From an uncultured Flavobacteriaceae bacterium (GTDB taxonomy: Bacteria > Bacteroidota > Bacteroidia > Flavobacteriales > Flavobacteriaceae), in the NCBI GenBank assembly GCA_947495135.1, contig CANLXN010000003.1:310001-374000 (forward strand): a stretch of 64,000 nt of DNA, written 5' to 3'. The translations under genes were made by a program, and so were the position numbers. Positions 21,877-28,408 of this stretch are shown in pieces (within the stretch, counting starts at the first letter, position 1; each line of letters opens with the position of its first letter). Below the pieces are notes generated by a model. That model had not been told where the DNA came from. It was given only the letters and a program-made list of their open reading frames with translations, and made no database searches.

Positions 21877-22761
21877 ATGAACATTGCCGTTATATCACGC
21901 GGAGAAAACTTATACTCTACCCAAAGTCTTCTTAAGGCTGGACTCGCTAGAGACCATGAAATGGAAGTTTTGGAACCCTCGAATTGCACCTTAGCCATAG
22001 AGGGTGGCAAGCCAACGCTGTATTATTGTGATGAAATTGTAGACGACTTACACGCTGTAATTCCAAGAATAGGCGCCTCCAACACCGAATTTGGATCTTC
22101 CTTAGTAAGACACTTTCAATCAATGGGCGTTTTTTGCGTAGCGGAAGCAGACCCCATACTTCGATCTCGTAATAAATGGACTAGTTTTCAGATTCTGGCG
22201 CAGGCAGCAATTCCGTTACCAAAGACTTTTCTAGGCAATGCTTTTAGCGAAGAACACATGCTAGATCAGATGGGAAAAGCACCTGTAATCATTAAATTAC
22301 TAGAAGGAACACATGGTCAAGGGGTAATCCTGGCCGAAACTTACAAATCTGCTTTGTCTATCATAGAAACCTTAAATGCCTCGAGAGTGAAGTTTGTGGT
22401 CCAGGAATTTATTGCCGAATCTAATGGTACAGATCTACGTGCTATTGTTGTAGATGGTAAAGTGGTTGCTGCCATGAAAAGAGCCAGTAAAAATGGAGAT
22501 TTTAGATCTAATCTTCACCGAGGTGGCTCTTCAGAAATAATTACCCTGAGTCAACAAGAAGAGCTCATCGCTATTAAAGCTGCCAAAGCCTTGCAACTGG
22601 GAGTCTGCGGCGTAGATATTCTTCAAAGCTCCCGAGGGCCATTAGTTTTAGAAATTAATTCGACACCTGGTCTTGAGGGAATAGAAACCACTACCAAAGT
22701 GAATATTTCAGAAAAAATCATCCAATATATCGAAAGAAATAAGCCCACTTCTTTTAAATAA
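21877..22761 (+). CDS. RimK-family ATP-grasp glutamate ligase, divergent paralogue
   Basis: A 294-residue ATP-grasp ligase. It shares with the RimK two genes downstream the PRIGAS motif, the [21 protein letters not shown] nucleotide-binding block, FRSNLHRGG, and the metal-binding end EINSTPGLEGIE. The substrate-facing N-terminal part differs more (SNTEFGSSLVRHFQSMGVF versus the E. coli-like sequence of the second copy). RimK-family enzymes add glutamates to the C-terminus of ribosomal protein S6 or, in relatives, to other carboxylates. This copy probably has a different acceptor. First gene of a same-strand cluster of five. Confidence 0.85.
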   Translation: MNIAVISRGENLYSTQSLLKAGLARDHEMEVLEPSNCTLAIEGGKPTLYYCDEIVDDLHAVIPRIGASNTEFGSSLVRHFQSMGVFCVAEADPILRSRNKWTSFQILAQAAIPLPKTFLGNAFSEEHMLDQMGKAPVIIKLLEGTHGQGVILAETYKSALSIIETLNASRVKFVVQEFIAESNGTDLRAIVVDGKVVAAMKRASKNGDFRSNLHRGGSSEIITLSQQEELIAIKAAKALQLGVCGVDILQSSRGPLVLEINSTPGLEGIETTTKVNISEKIIQYIERNKPTSFK

Positions 22762-22829
22762 TAATTAGCCGTTCACATTTTTTTAGATGAGTGGTTTTGT
22801 ATCTTTCTCACCAAAAATTAACACAACTC

Positions 22830-23261
22830 TTGAAACGAAATATAGGTAGAATAGACAAGGCGGATTTTCCTCTATTAAAACTATTTAATATTGATGTGAA
22901 AATTGATACAGGAGCATACACTTCAACTATTCATTGTAAAAATGTAGTGGTGGAAGAAAACTATCTCAAATGTATTTTTCTTGATGAAGAACATCCAGCA
23001 TACCATCGCAAGCAGTTTAAATTTGACACGTACGACGTGCGTGTGGTAAAGAGTAGCAATGGCGAAACACAAGCCAGGTACAGGATTTTAACTGAAATCG
23101 AACTCTTTGGAAAGCGTTATCCCATATTTTTGACTCTTAGCGACCGAGAAGAGATGAAATATCCCGTACTTTTAGGTCGTAAATTTCTGACGAAAAGGTT
23201 TAATGTTGACATAAATAAAACAAACCTATCCTACAAACTAAAACAAAAGAATGAACATTAA
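22830..23261 (+). CDS. RimB-like retropepsin-fold protease (ATP-dependent zinc protease family)
   Basis: A 143-residue protein from the TTG at 22830 ([14 protein letters not shown]); the longer frame from GTG at 22791 adds 13 residues that look non-coding. It shows the aspartic-protease-like motif [13 protein letters not shown] and a late [10 protein letters not shown] strand, typical of PF05618, the family of RimB in the Pseudomonas RimABK system and of proteins annotated as ATP-dependent zinc protease. It lies between two RimK paralogues and overlaps the second by 11 bp, which implies tight translational coupling and a shared modification pathway. Confidence 0.8.
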
Positions 23262-24123
23262 GATCCTTTCGGCAAATCCAAATTTGTATTCTACCAACAG
23301 GCTTATTGAAGCGGCCACAAATCGCGGTCACACAATAGAGGTGATCAATCACACCAAGTGCGATATTGTTATAGAAAAGAAAAACCCCTGTATCTATTAC
23401 AAAGGAAGGAAAATTGAAAACGTAGATGCCGTTATTCCTAGAATTGGAGCTTCCGTAACCTATTACGGTACAGCGGTAGTACGACAGTTCGAGATGATGC
23501 ATTGCTTCACCACCACAGAGTCTGTTGCCTTGGTGAGGTCTAGAGATAAATTACGAAGTCTTCAAATATTGTCTCGAGCCGGATTGGGATTGCCTAAAAC
23601 AGTTTTTACAAATTACTCGAAAAATGTAGAAAATATTGTTTCTCAAGCTGGTGGAGCGCCAGTAATCATTAAATTGTTAGAGGGCACACAGGGTATTGGA
23701 GTAATCCTTGCCGAAACAACAAAAGCCGCAGAGTCTGTTATCGAAGCATTTAATAATTTGCAGGCTCGAGTAATTGTACAAGAATTTATTAAAGAAGCTG
23801 GTGGTGCAGATATTAGAGCCTTTATAATCGACGGTCAGGTAGTGGGAGCCATGAAGAGACAAGGGAAAGAAGGAGAATTTAGAAGTAACCTGCACCGAGG
23901 AGGCTCCGCAGAAGTAATTACTTTAACCGATGAAGAAGAAACCGCAGCACTCAAGGCTGCCAAAGCAATGGGGCTTGGAATTGCCGGGGTAGATATGTTA
24001 CAATCGTCTCGAGGTCCGCTTATCTTGGAAGTAAATTCGTCGCCAGGATTAGAAGGAATTGAAAAAGCGACTGGTAAGGATATTGCAAATGCGATCATAA
24101 AATATATAGAGCGAAACGTCTAA
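23251..24123 (+). CDS. rimK: ribosomal protein S6--L-glutamate ligase
   Basis: A 290-residue ATP-grasp ligase very close to E. coli RimK along its length: [85 protein letters not shown] and [17 protein letters not shown]. RimK ligates glutamate residues to the S6 C-terminus. It overlaps the RimB-like protease gene by 11 bp upstream and the deacylase gene follows after 3 bp, so the three genes are very likely one operon. Confidence 0.92.
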
Positions 24124-24126
24124 AAC

Positions 24127-25125
24127 ATGGGATTAGAAGTCAACGACATGATTATTTTAGGAGAAAAAATTTCTCTTGGGGAAAGTAAAACCATCAATTT
24201 TAGCTTCGCAAAATTGTACACCGCCACTAGAGTAGAAATCCCAGTGATTGTGGAACGCGCCAACGAACCAGGGCCTACGGTGTTAATAACTGGTGGTATC
24301 CACGGAGATGAAATAAATGGTGTTGAAATTGTGCGCCAGTTAATTGCAAGAAAAATAAACAAACCGGCTAAGGGAACTACTATTTGCATTCCCATCCTGA
24401 ACATTTTTGGCTTTCTAAATGCCGAGCGCGCATTTCCAGATGGCCGAGACTTGAATCGGGTTTTTCCTGGAACAAAAACAGGCTCCTTAGCAAGTAGGGT
24501 AGCTTATCATTTTTCAAAAAAGATATTGCCTCATGCAGATTACTGCTTAGACTTTCATACTGGTGGAGCGCAACGATTCAATGCAGCGCAAATTAGAATT
24601 GCACCAGACAACGAAGAACTGCTAGAGTTGGCAACCGTATTTAATAGTCCTTTTACGGTATTTTCAAAGAATTTGAGTAAGTCTTATCGAAATACTTGTG
24701 AAGAAATGGGTATTCCAATTCTATTATTTGAAGGAGGAAAATCGCTTGAGAGTAATAAGCATATTGTGAAAGAAGGAGTAGATGGTGTTATTCGCGTGTT
24801 AAATCATTTAAATGTACTGTCCAGCAAACATGAGGTTCCGCAGGTAAAAACAACTCCAGTAATTATCAAAAATAGTAGATGGATTCGCGCCCAAAAGAGT
24901 GGATTACTTCATATCAAAATAGAGTGTAACAAGCATGTTGTAAAAGGTGAGTTTCTTGCCACCATTACCGATCCTTATGGTACCATGCGATTTAAAGTAC
25001 TGGCGCCAAACGAAGGGTACATAATTAATGTGAATCAAGCTCCCATTGTGAACCAAGGCGATGCAATCTTTCATATTTCGTATGAAAATCCTTCAAATAA
25101 AAACAAACAGAGTCTTGCAGGTTAA
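24127..25125 (+). CDS. succinylglutamate desuccinylase/aspartoacylase (AstE/AspA) family zinc hydrolase
   Basis: A 332-residue M14-like hydrolase. Zinc and substrate motifs are visible: GGIHGDEINGVEI (H, E), PDGRDLNRVFPG (R), CLDFHTGG (H) and LLFEGGKS (catalytic-type E). A C-terminal ~80-residue barrel-like domain ends the protein. The family removes acyl groups from N-acyl amino acids or cleaves C-terminal amino acids. Its position 3 bp behind rimK suggests a role in trimming or supplying the glutamate modification, but an unrelated deacylase role is possible. It overlaps the next start by one base (TAATG). Confidence 0.85.
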   Translation: MGLEVNDMIILGEKISLGESKTINFSFAKLYTATRVEIPVIVERANEPGPTVLITGGIHGDEINGVEIVRQLIARKINKPAKGTTICIPILNIFGFLNAERAFPDGRDLNRVFPGTKTGSLASRVAYHFSKKILPHADYCLDFHTGGAQRFNAAQIRIAPDNEELLELATVFNSPFTVFSKNLSKSYRNTCEEMGIPILLFEGGKSLESNKHIVKEGVDGVIRVLNHLNVLSSKHEVPQVKTTPVIIKNSRWIRAQKSGLLHIKIECNKHVVKGEFLATITDPYGTMRFKVLAPNEGYIINVNQAPIVNQGDAIFHISYENPSNKNKQSLAG

Positions 25126-25685
25126 TGGACAAAGCTACCCTTAGAAAAAAATACAAGTCATTACGAGAAGAACTCTCAGATTCGACGGTGGACGACTGGA
25201 GCCTATTGATCGCTAATCAAGCGCTACAACTCCCTATCTGGGATAAAACCTATTACCATATTTTTTTACCTATTTCAGAAAAAAAAGAAGTGAATACAGA
25301 ATACCTTCTTCACATTCTTCAGGGTAGAGATAAAAGTGTAATTGTTTCTAAAACTAATTTTGAAAGTTTAGAATTGAAACATTATTTGTTACAAGAAAAT
25401 ACAGAGATTAGAATTTCTAACTATGGCATCCCAGAACCCGTAAATGGCATCGAAGTATCCCCTTCTCAATTAGAAGTTGTATTTGTTCCATTATTAGCTT
25501 TTGACACAAAAGGTAACCGAATTGGATACGGTAAAGGCTTCTATGATAGATTTTTAGCACAGTGTCCCGAAAAGTGTCTCAAAATAGGGTTATCCTTCTT
25601 TGAGGCCGAAGAAAAAATTATCCATGAATTCATGGATTTTCCCCTCGATTATTGCATTACTACTAAAAATGTCTACTCATTTTAA
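25125..25685 (+). CDS. 5-formyltetrahydrofolate cyclo-ligase
   Basis: A 186-residue protein that converts 5-formyl-THF to 5,10-methenyl-THF with ATP. Signatures: the basic N-terminal KATLRKKYKSLREEL, VVFVPLLAFDTKGNRIGYGKGFYDRFL and the C-terminal ITTKNVYSF. Its start overlaps the preceding stop by one base, so it is co-translated with the RimK cluster, although a functional link between folate salvage and RimK is not established. Confidence 0.92.
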   Translation: MDKATLRKKYKSLREELSDSTVDDWSLLIANQALQLPIWDKTYYHIFLPISEKKEVNTEYLLHILQGRDKSVIVSKTNFESLELKHYLLQENTEIRISNYGIPEPVNGIEVSPSQLEVVFVPLLAFDTKGNRIGYGKGFYDRFLAQCPEKCLKIGLSFFEAEEKIIHEFMDFPLDYCITTKNVYSF

Positions 25686-26822: not shown

Positions 26823-27959
26823 ATGAACTTTTTAACGCAAAAGAGCAAGAATCATCTTTTGAAGAAAGAGACATCCAAACCACCTGAAGAAACACCCTTC
26901 GATAATTTTTATTACAAGGATGTTGCTCAGCTCACAGGAGCTGGGGGATGGGCTGTAAATTTCAAGAAGAAAAAAAGCTTTTTTGATCCACAGGCAAGAG
27001 CTATCCTAAAAACCCCTGAAGATTATCGCCCTTCTATTAGAACAGGTTTAGATTTCTATACAGAAGAATATGCTCCCAAAGCCGCAGAAATTTTCATGGC
27101 TTGCAGTATGGGAGAACCTTTTTCTACCATCCTTAAAATGAAAACCTATGAAGGAAAGGAGTTTTGGGCCAAAGCAGTAGGACGCCCTATTTATGAGGGG
27201 AATGAAATAATTGGTATTCAAGGAACTTTTCAGGATATCAATCAGGAAAAATTGAAAGAAATTGGGCTAGAATCGTCTATCAAGGTAATAGAGTCTCAAA
27301 ATTCACGCCTTTTTAATTTTGCTCATATTGTATCTCACAACCTAAGATCGCATGCAAGTAATTTGCATCTTACCCTAGAATTACTCCAATCGATCAATTC
27401 GCCTGCAGAAGAAGAAGAATTAAAGACAAGTCTCTACGATATTTCATTAAGCTTGAACGAAACTATCAATCATCTCAATGAAATTGTAACTACCCAATCC
27501 AAGTCATTAAGTGAACGCAAAATCATTAAATTTGAAGAGGTACTAAAAAATGTGCTAAATTCTATTAATCGCTTAGTGATTGATACTGAGACAGAAATAT
27601 ACAGCGACTTCTCGGAAGTTCCAGAAATTAATTATATCCCATCGTATTTAGATAGTATTTTCTTAAATTTAGTAACAAATGCGATCAAATATCGTCATGA
27701 GGAAAGAACTCCAGTGATCGATATTTGCTCCTACGCTGAGAATGGAAAAACGTGTTTAATGATAAAGGATAATGGATTAGGTATTGACCTTGAAAAGCAC
27801 AAAGACAAAATTTTTAACATGTATCAAACCTTCCATCCAGGCAAAGAATCGGTTGGAATAGGATTATTTATAACTAAAAATCAAATTGAAACCCTTCAGG
27901 GCTCTATATTAGTCGAGAGTGCTGTAGGTATAGGAACCACTTTTAAAATTACGTTTTAA
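26823..27959 (+). CDS. PAS-domain sensor histidine kinase (soluble)
   Basis: A 378-residue kinase without membrane segments. A PAS fold spans ~30-145 (WAVNFKKKKSFFDPQ; GTFQDINQEK as the PAC end). The dimerisation box has VSHNLRS (phospho-acceptor H172). The ATPase domain shows the N box NLVTNAIKY (N286), G1 DNGLGI and G2 SVGIGLFI. The VSHNLR variant of the H box is common in Bacteroidota. A single-domain response regulator follows after 26 bp, presumably its partner. Confidence 0.9.
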   Translation: MNFLTQKSKNHLLKKETSKPPEETPFDNFYYKDVAQLTGAGGWAVNFKKKKSFFDPQARAILKTPEDYRPSIRTGLDFYTEEYAPKAAEIFMACSMGEPFSTILKMKTYEGKEFWAKAVGRPIYEGNEIIGIQGTFQDINQEKLKEIGLESSIKVIESQNSRLFNFAHIVSHNLRSHASNLHLTLELLQSINSPAEEEELKTSLYDISLSLNETINHLNEIVTTQSKSLSERKIIKFEEVLKNVLNSINRLVIDTETEIYSDFSEVPEINYIPSYLDSIFLNLVTNAIKYRHEERTPVIDICSYAENGKTCLMIKDNGLGIDLEKHKDKIFNMYQTFHPGKESVGIGLFITKNQIETLQGSILVESAVGIGTTFKITF

Positions 27960-27985
27960 CCCACCATAAAATACCAAAAACTCCC

Positions 27986-28408
27986 TTGAAGACTCCCCTC
28001 TCTAAAATAAAACTCTCTTGTATTATTGACGACGACGACGTATATATCAACCTCATCAAAAAAATAATTGATATTAAGAAGTTATCCGAAAATCTACTCG
28101 TGTTCAAAAACGGGCAAGAAGCACTCGACTACTTCAAACCAATAATGGAGAATATATCGGAAGAAAATTTCCCTGAGATCATACTTTTGGATCTCAATAT
28201 GCCTGTAATGGATGGTTGGAAATTCTTGAACGAGTTCACGCAAATAAAGACGAAGAAAAAAATAATGCCTACTATATATATTGTGAGTAGTTCAATTAAC
28301 CCTTACGATGTGGAAAAGGCTAAATCTTATTCGTTAGTTACAGATTATCTTATTAAACCAATCGATATTGCCCAGTTTGAAGCATTGTTCTTGAAAGCAT
28401 CTGCCTAA
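27986..28408 (+). CDS. single-domain response regulator
   Basis: A 140-residue receiver domain with no output domain. The start is TTG (MKTPLSKIKL). Acidic triad IIDDDD (~13-18), phospho-acceptor D69 in LLDLNMPVMDGW, signalling Ser in IYIVSSS and K124 in YLIKPID are all present. It is probably phosphorylated by the adjacent PAS kinase and passes the signal by protein-protein contact or phosphotransfer. Its last four bases overlap the end of lspA on the other strand. Confidence 0.9.
   Translation: MKTPLSKIKLSCIIDDDDVYINLIKKIIDIKKLSENLLVFKNGQEALDYFKPIMENISEENFPEIILLDLNMPVMDGWKFLNEFTQIKTKKKIMPTIYIVSSSINPYDVEKAKSYSLVTDYLIKPIDIAQFEALFLKASA

Follow-up and report, generated by a model that had tools for sequence, protein, structure and literature searches.

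RimK, an ATP-grasp alpha-L-glutamate ligase, is routinely annotated as an enzyme that modifies ribosomal protein S6. The RimK proteins of Pseudomonas fluorescens and Escherichia coli are reported to make free poly-alpha-glutamate, and RimB to cleave poly-Glu (PMC11957791). Papers on RimB and on Rlo have asked what RimK and RimB do apart from S6 modification, and the authors of the latter suggested, as possibilities, glutamate-polyglutamate homeostasis and an osmolyte role of glutamate (PMC12239564). In the cyanophycin cycle as described in PMC12661447, CphA makes the polymer, CphB yields beta-Asp-Arg, and CphZ splits beta-Asp-Arg. Here we describe a four-gene locus in a 64,000-nucleotide stretch of DNA (the window) that lies on contig C3 of the 4.29-Mb genome of an uncultured Flavobacteriaceae bacterium. 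It encodes, in this order, a ligase (RimK1), a RimB-like retropepsin (B), a second ligase (RimK2), and a hydrolase of the AstE/AspA fold (A). We estimate a probability of about 45% that the locus encodes an S6-independent cycle for the synthesis and recycling of alpha-linked glutamate chains, laid out like the cyanophycin cycle. RimK, RimB, the RimB-RimK fusion, and the AstE-like enzymes are known families. New here are the combination of RimK and RimB with an extra hydrolase, the two RimK types per locus, and the absence of an S6 tail to act on. In the literature searched, which included PMC10092738, PMC11957791, and PMC4431377 but not the 2009 amidoligase survey of Iyer et al., A was not found named as a RimK partner.

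The four genes, the 11-bp overlap of B and RimK2, and the 3-bp gap between RimK2 and A, all listed in the initial annotation, are borne out by the open reading frames (ORFs) and by Pfam and NCBIfam matches, which confirms that the locus exists as described (Table 1). RimK1 ends 29 bp before the GTG start of B, and A overlaps the downstream cyclo-ligase gene by 1 bp, so the gene run extends past A. A divergent uvrC-like gene borders the quartet on its upstream side. B has no ATG start, and the N-termini of its relatives favor the TTG over the GTG. Both RimK1 and RimK2 match PF08443 and PF18030, B matches PF05618 (58.3 bits, cut-off 27), and A matches PF24827 (125.5 bits, cut-off 25).

The proposal that these genes form a single ligase-plus-hydrolase system gains from the finding that A travels with RimK, as well as from the residue conservation in A and B that is described below. 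When the genome collection was scanned with A as the query, all of the best 80 loci, which come from close relatives, had RimK directly upstream of A. Among 247 evenly sampled Bacteroidota genomes, with A called at E ≤ 1e-30, RimK is present in 81 and A in 75, including a weak match in G133. Both are found in 74 genomes, RimK alone in 7 (G041, G095, G123, G168, G227, G271, and G276), the weak A alone in 1, and neither in 165. A is encoded in 74/81 RimK-bearing genomes versus 1/166 RimK-free ones (Fisher's exact test, p = 1e-53, a rough guide because the sampled genomes share kinship). Counted per genus (n = 122), A is present in 36 and RimK in 39. In 54 of the 74 genomes, the two genes share a strand, with RimK no more than 1 kb upstream of A. 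Most of the nonadjacent cases (13 of 20) come from one genus (g33) with RimK frames of 456 to 472 amino acids (aa); the one g33 frame checked (L291) is a RimB-RimK fusion.

The best 80 loci comprise 30 with the order RimK1-B-RimK2-A, 34 with B-RimK2-A, 13 with RimK1-A, and 3 with RimK2-A (one of these at a contig end). Judging from these counts, the quartet is confined to part of the Flavobacteriaceae yet real, and its identical gene order in 30 of 80 loci is beyond chance. Even within the window's own genus, represented by nine genomes, it is found in just two (G000 and G001). Six others (G002, G003, G004, G006, G007, and G008) encode a single RimK with A and show no match to B genome-wide, and G005 has A only as a cut copy at a contig edge. 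The single RimK proteins of G003 and G007 are placed in the RimK1 clade by a tree; the other four are taken as RimK1-type from their 50 to 52% identity to RimK2.

A wider distribution is seen for the order B-RimK-A. Among 60 regions retrieved around A or a RimK gene, mostly from outside the window's own group, this order is found in several families and beyond the class, there without the cyclo-ligase or uvrC. Other layouts include B-RimK with no adjoining A (L284-L290) and A alone (L200-L202, L204, L211, and L213). B-RimK-A is the older unit, and the quartet is narrower in spread. The initial annotation had made its proposal depend on conservation across genomes; the quartet is kept in part of the Flavobacteriaceae and the three-gene core far more widely.

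B-RimK-A or RimK-A-B trios are also found in Gammaproteobacteria, Alphaproteobacteria, and Cyanobacteria. A tblastn search of 72,556 plasmids with A as the query gave matches in 579 records, and 17 of these matches, picked from the best bacterial and from archaeal ones, were inspected (Table 1). In three of the six inspected haloarchaeal plasmid loci, a gene for a RimK-RimB fusion is divergent from an adjoining A. The fusion protein is 440 to 461 aa long, and its RimK domain precedes a Zn_protease domain. This order, with RimK first and the protease last, is the reverse of that in the bacterial RimB-RimK fusions L215 and L291. S6 gave no match in any of four archaeal control genomes, although RimK did match there; to our knowledge, haloarchaea lack S6. 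The stretches retrieved around plasmid-borne A contain no RimK in the haloarchaeal loci L269, L298, and L299 or in Pukyongiella (L294), Legionella lytica (L296), and Vibrio parahaemolyticus (L297), where the match to A is split over two frames.

In the initial annotation, S6 was considered as the carrier of the glutamate tag, and inspection of its C terminus does not support this for the host. The host S6 is 113 aa long and ends in ...AERRRARNNKQKA; its final residues, RRRARNNKQKA, are basic and include no E or EE end. E. coli S6, for comparison, ends in ...DAEAGDSEE. The S6 sequence was read from 60 genomes, 50 with RimK and 10 without; no S6 locus was retrieved for two further RimK-bearing relatives (G006 and G023) or for 10 genomes in a set of 40. 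In the host's family and order, S6 ends in E or D in 0 of 20 RimK-bearing genomes, the host included, and the quartet probably does not act on the ribosome in this host. Of the 10 RimK-free genomes, one (G034) has an S6 ending in E. Acidic S6 tails are seen in families f37, f43, and f35 (loci among L234-L263), and the window's family has a short S6 with a basic end. In the sampled genomes, the S6 tail tracks lineage and not the presence of the locus.

B scores 53.9 bits against the RimB equivalog NF052261 (cut-off 200), which places it in the same family but not among the curated RimB proteins. Its residues D39-T40-G41, K37, R96, and R119 are conserved at 0.97 to 1.00 in 119 sequences. The AlphaFold2 model of B (predicted local distance difference test [pLDDT] score, 91.9) has its best structural matches in Lpg0085, RloA, and RloA2, followed by retroviral proteases, and the profile of B matches 9g59 with an E value of 5.6e-22. 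In our own match, K37, R96, and R119 align with K46, R114, and R137 of RloA, with the 23-residue spacing kept. These RloA residues touch poly-Glu in the model of its authors and are reported to be shared with RimB; the R114A and R137A substitutions hit cleavage hardest (PMC12239564). By its DTG motif, predicted fold, and putative poly-Glu-binding basic residues, B qualifies as a retropepsin of the RimB/RloA family (PF05618).

In A, residues H59, E62, H144, E202, N110, and R111 are conserved at 0.99 to 1.00 in 158 sequences. We take them to be a zinc site (H-x-x-E ... H), a general-base Glu, and an N-R pair. These residues and the predicted fold place A in the AstE/AspA family PF24827. It stays under every curated NCBIfam cut-off, with scores of 106 for DoeB (cut-off 402.7), 23.2 for AstE (305.65), and 23.2 for aspartoacylase (180). 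The predicted model (pLDDT, 92.1) is closest to 3cdx (Z score, 34.8) and DoeB (6twm; Z, 34.3). Further matches are CphZ (8eip; Z, 26.8), AstE (2g9d; Z, 18.9), and aspartoacylase (2gu2; Z, 17.8). AstE converts succinyl-Glu to free Glu. Release of a terminal Glu from a Glu peptide involves the same kind of amide bond, and A is predicted from its sequence and model to free glutamate from short alpha-Glu peptides. The bond that it cuts is uncertain because A is nearer to the DoeB-type deacylases than to CphZ.

RimK1 and RimK2 are 54% identical and are by far the strongest RimK-domain matches in the genome. Weaker ones are a glutathione-synthetase-like protein, cyanophycin synthetase, and a protein that reads as biotin-carboxylase-like from its sequence. 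RimK2 passes the NCBIfam S6-ligase model PRK10446 (382.8, cut-off 331) and RimK1 fails it (293.4). The suggestion that RimK1 differs mainly in its N-terminal half holds in direction. Identity between the two proteins is 40 to 42% over the first 96 aligned columns and 52 to 69% over the next 192, with means in 30 quartets of 0.448 for residues 1 to 95 and 0.539 for residues 96 to 289. The effect is mild, and RimK2 proteins compared with one another likewise vary more at the N terminus (0.859 versus 0.925).

In the RimK of Pseudomonas aeruginosa, the reported contacts with the Glu chain are S7, R8, S14, R64, S68, R189, and N262 (PMC10092738). All seven are kept in RimK1, each in 46 or 47 of 47 sequences. 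RimK2 keeps six; at position 8, 35 of 72 sequences have R and 34 have A, as does the RimK2 of the window. D248, E260, and N262 are invariant across every RimK group compared. With all seven contacts in place, RimK1 seems to have full activity on Glu chains, and the divergence of its N terminus argues only weakly for a new acceptor. This weakens the idea that RimK1 acts on another target through a divergent acceptor half. Conservation of these residues also rejects a RimK1 that has lost its active site.

In a careful tree of 62 RimK proteins, from which the long-branch L208 was left out, the RimK1 rows (n = 15) make up a single clade (100/100), which joins RimK proteins of other families at 91/90, under the starred level. 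The RimK2 rows form one clade (99/95) amid RimK proteins from B-RimK-A trios. A quick tree of 126 rows agrees, and the trees reject RimK1 as a recent duplicate of RimK2. B is absent from all 24 single-RimK loci on the RimK1 side (13 of the best 80 plus L206, L208, L209, L214, L216, L220-L222, L232, L233, and L277). Among the best 80, it is present in 34 of 37 single-RimK loci on the RimK2 side; one of the three lacking it is at a contig end. These sequence comparisons assign RimK1 to an old clade in which loci with a single RimK are RimB-free. The tree placement and the B counts indicate that the window pairs a RimB-free and a RimB-coupled type of RimK that share one A. P. fluorescens RimK is reported to be stimulated by RimB, and the RimK of E. 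coli, a genome without rimB, to be unstimulated and to make short chains only (PMC11957791); the two types fit this part of the published behavior. They do not fit the reported depression of P. aeruginosa RimK by RimB (PMC10092738).

Two stricter versions of this division are rejected. RimB is not strictly tied to RimK2, as G013, G014, G016, and G017 encode a RimK2-like RimK (two by the tree, two by 67 to 68% identity) and A with no match to B. A RimK1-type locus that lacks RimB may, moreover, belong to a genome that is not RimB-free: G009, G010, and G019 encode proteins of the size of a RimB-RimK fusion, and G196 has a second B-RimK pair. Locus L208 encodes an unusual RimK of 495 aa directly upstream of A. 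Its approximately 200 extra N-terminal residues have no Pfam match, and no RimB domain was found when one was looked for in this protein.

In the proposed cycle, RimK1 and RimK2 would use ATP to join glutamate to glutamate or to some acceptor. B would cut the chain internally, and A would free glutamate from short pieces or from the short chains of a RimK working without RimB. RimK2 would act as the RimB-coupled ligase and RimK1 as a second type, elsewhere encoded without an adjoining RimB, with one A in common. The cycle might serve glutamate, ion, or osmotic balance, which is the least certain step. Gene order, conservation, co-occurrence, the catalytic and poly-Glu-binding residues, and the host S6 tail are observed and the folds are predicted, whereas what the cycle makes, which bond A cuts, and what purpose it serves are inferred. 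A broader version, possible but doubtful, posits a widespread S6-independent bank of poly-alpha-glutamate in marine and halophilic bacteria and archaea, in which RimK would store glutamate and RimB and A would release it inside the cell as an anion and osmolyte upon ionic change.

Plasmid-borne loci hint that the system may have a role in osmotic or ionic balance. Each of the seven annotated trios on bacterial plasmids, which represent four genera, has a gene for an ion channel or for ion transport at most 5 kb away: an MscS-type channel near five, a Mg transporter near four, CorA or ZntB near two, and a cation:proton antiporter near one. This is a raw count without a background rate, and several further observations also weigh against the proposed cycle. 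Nine recurrent neighbors in family f37 include no ion channel or transporter according to Pfam (DUF952, peroxiredoxin, D-serine-dehydratase-like, response regulator, ferredoxin, diacylglycerol-kinase-like, TonB, and two without a match). Deletion of rimB in P. aeruginosa is reported to have had no effect in hypo-osmotic medium (PMC12239564), and RimK of that species to be depressed by RimB and not stimulated (PMC10092738). A is 24 to 26% identical to DoeB-type deacylases versus 16 to 17% to CphZ. RimK is not adjacent to A in 20 of 74 genomes, A is missing from 7 of 81 RimK-bearing genomes, and many loci lack RimB. RimK1-like sequences of other families, the distant clade-mates of RimK1, keep R8 in 2/7 and S68 in 2/7, which also tempers the case made above from the contacts. 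Finally, S6 ends in E or D in 12 of the 50 RimK-bearing genomes (nine in f37, two in f43, and one in f35) and, given these ends, is possibly a target in those families.

Tubulin is glutamylated by TTLL ligases and deglutamylated by CCP enzymes. A prokaryotic counterpart, in which RimK writes a polyglutamate tail on the C terminus of a protein other than S6 and A, with its M14-like fold, erases it together with B, is somewhat unlikely but is the strongest alternative. The deglutamylase CCP5 is among the Foldseek matches of the model of A (8v3p; E value, 2.3e-9), the two types of RimK could serve two acceptors, and protein glutamylation by RimK is reported for both E. coli and Pseudomonas (PMC11957791, PMC10092738). 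Against this, S6 is excluded in the host as an E- or EE-ended acceptor, and no neighbor that recurs across families offers itself as another one. Clusters of flanking ORFs in the 60 regions reflect within-family synteny and yield no recurrent fifth gene; seven clusters extend beyond a single family, each with at most four loci.

Less probable still is a small-molecule pathway, in which RimK would add Glu to a metabolite or a folate tail and A would remove an acyl cap or Glu. MptN and CofF are precedents, and the animal RIMKL enzymes make N-acetylaspartylglutamate (NAAG) or beta-citrylglutamate. The MptN and LysX models match both RimK1 and RimK2, below the cut-off, and DoeB-type deacylases are the nearest relatives of A in both sequence and structure. 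The cyclo-ligase adjoins A in 79 of the best 80 loci. It is missing from the B-RimK-A trios of other families, so the adjacency is family synteny and a folate link is set aside. Such a pathway has no obvious role for a poly-Glu endopeptidase, and most or all poly-Glu contacts are kept in RimK2 and RimK1, respectively.

Classical S6 glutamylation, as in Pseudomonas RimABK and with A as an added trimmer, is very improbable here. RimK2 does pass the S6-ligase equivalog, B adjoins RimK as in Pseudomonas, and some trio-bearing families have acidic S6 tails. These points are outweighed by the NNKQKA end of the host S6, by the 0/20 count for its family and order, and by the RimK-RimB fusions that adjoin A in haloarchaea, S6 being unmatched in all four archaeal controls.

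The role of A as a CphZ in cyanophycin recycling, placed beside RimK by chance, is the least probable of the alternatives: CphZ is among its best fold matches and the genome encodes both cyanophycin synthetase and cyanophycinase, but A and cphA, which share a contig, are approximately 235 kb apart, and of the 74 A-bearing genomes, 14 have a cyanophycin synthetase over the cut-off and all 74 have RimK, a co-occurrence on which this role is set aside.

With a cyanophycin synthetase gene and a divergent cyanophycinase gene (Table 1), the host may have two amino-acid polymer systems. Elsewhere in the genome, a glutathione-synthetase-like ATP-grasp gene followed by an N-formylglutamate-amidohydrolase-like gene makes up a second ligase-plus-amidase arrangement. 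Histidine-kinase-like and response-regulator-like ORFs lie a few genes downstream of the quartet.

Table 1. Coordinates of the quartet, of neighboring genes, and of related loci (window positions, unless a genome or locus is named)
Feature	Position	Strand	Product	Evidence or remark
RimK1	21877..22761	+	ATP-grasp alpha-L-glutamate ligase, 294 aa	PF08443, 214.8 bits
B	22791..23261	+	RimB/RloA-like retropepsin-fold aspartic endopeptidase	PF05618; start GTG 22791 or TTG 22830
RimK2	23251..24123	+	ATP-grasp alpha-L-glutamate ligase, 290 aa, RimB-associated type	Passes S6-ligase equivalog
A	24127..25125	+	AstE/AspA/DoeB/CphZ-fold zinc hydrolase, 332 aa	PF24827, conserved residues, predicted fold
Cyclo-ligase	25125..25685	+	5-formyltetrahydrofolate cyclo-ligase	TIGR02727, 123.1 > 84.9; probably outside the system
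Two-component ORFs	26823-28408		Histidine-kinase-like and response-regulator-like	Judged from translations alone
Cyanophycin synthetase	G000:C3:96802-99393	-	Cyanophycin synthetase	1249 bits, cut-off 850
Cyanophycinase	L005:2545-3309	+	Cyanophycinase	217.1 bits, cut-off 126.6
Ligase-amidase pair	G000:C1:706177-709710 (L004:1084-2973)		Glutathione-synthetase-like, then N-formylglutamate-amidohydrolase-like	PRK12458, 447.8 bits; PF05013, 47.3 bits
Long RimK	L208:3524-5008	+	RimK, 495 aa	
Plasmid trio RimK-A-B	L264, L266			Vibrio
Plasmid trio B-RimK-A	L265, L270, L295			Salinivibrio
Plasmid trio	L267			Acaryochloris
Plasmid trio	L268			Phaeobacter inhibens P78; order B-RimK-A
Plasmid trio	L293			Photobacterium; called from ORFs alone
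Haloarchaeal fusion	L271:3467-4813	-	RimK-RimB fusion	
Haloarchaeal fusion	L300:2522-3841	-	RimK-RimB fusion	
Haloarchaeal fusion	L301:2467-3849	-	RimK-RimB fusion	

The window thus holds RimK genes that are regularly joined by a third partner, in a lineage whose S6 has no acceptor tail, and a related RimK system is found in archaea, which are not known to have S6. A makes the question of RimK and RimB roles beyond S6 directly testable. If the proposed cycle is real, a glutamate polymer would join prokaryotic storage and osmotic physiology. In the broader version, prokaryotes would have another polymer cycle of this kind in addition to that of cyanophycin, and the RimB-coupled and RimB-free RimK proteins would tune chain length. 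If instead a protein tail is modified, the locus would be a prokaryotic parallel to the glutamylation and deglutamylation of tubulin.

The locus shares with Pseudomonas RimABK/RimBK a RimK that carries the reported poly-Glu contacts and an adjoining gene for a retropepsin of the RimB family (PMC11957791, PMC10092738). In contrast to that system, there are two RimK genes and an additional hydrolase of the AstE/AspA fold, the C terminus of the host S6 is not acidic, and B scores far under the RimB equivalog. RimA, an EAL phosphodiesterase found in only some Pseudomonas, is not among the five plus-strand genes at 21877-25685, the part of the genome searched for it. With rloABC of P. aeruginosa, as described in PMC12239564, the locus has in common the retropepsin family of B, an ATP-grasp partner, and poly-Glu-binding residues. 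The membrane transglutaminase-like protein and the signal-peptide proteases are features of rloABC only, and its ATP-grasp protein is reported to be 24% identical to RimK. The RimBK hybrid enzyme of D. psychrophila (PMC11957791) resembles the RimB-RimK fusions in related genomes (L215 and L291), whereas the window has separate overlapping genes with an adjoining A, and the haloarchaeal fusions have RimK first. The cyanophycin cycle offers the closest parallel in layout, with an ATP-grasp polymerase, a first hydrolase, and then a dipeptide hydrolase, CphZ, with a fold like that of A. The first hydrolase of that cycle belongs to a class other than the retropepsins. The polymer also differs, RimK has no Mur-ligase domain, and A is similar to CphZ in fold at only 16 to 17% sequence identity.

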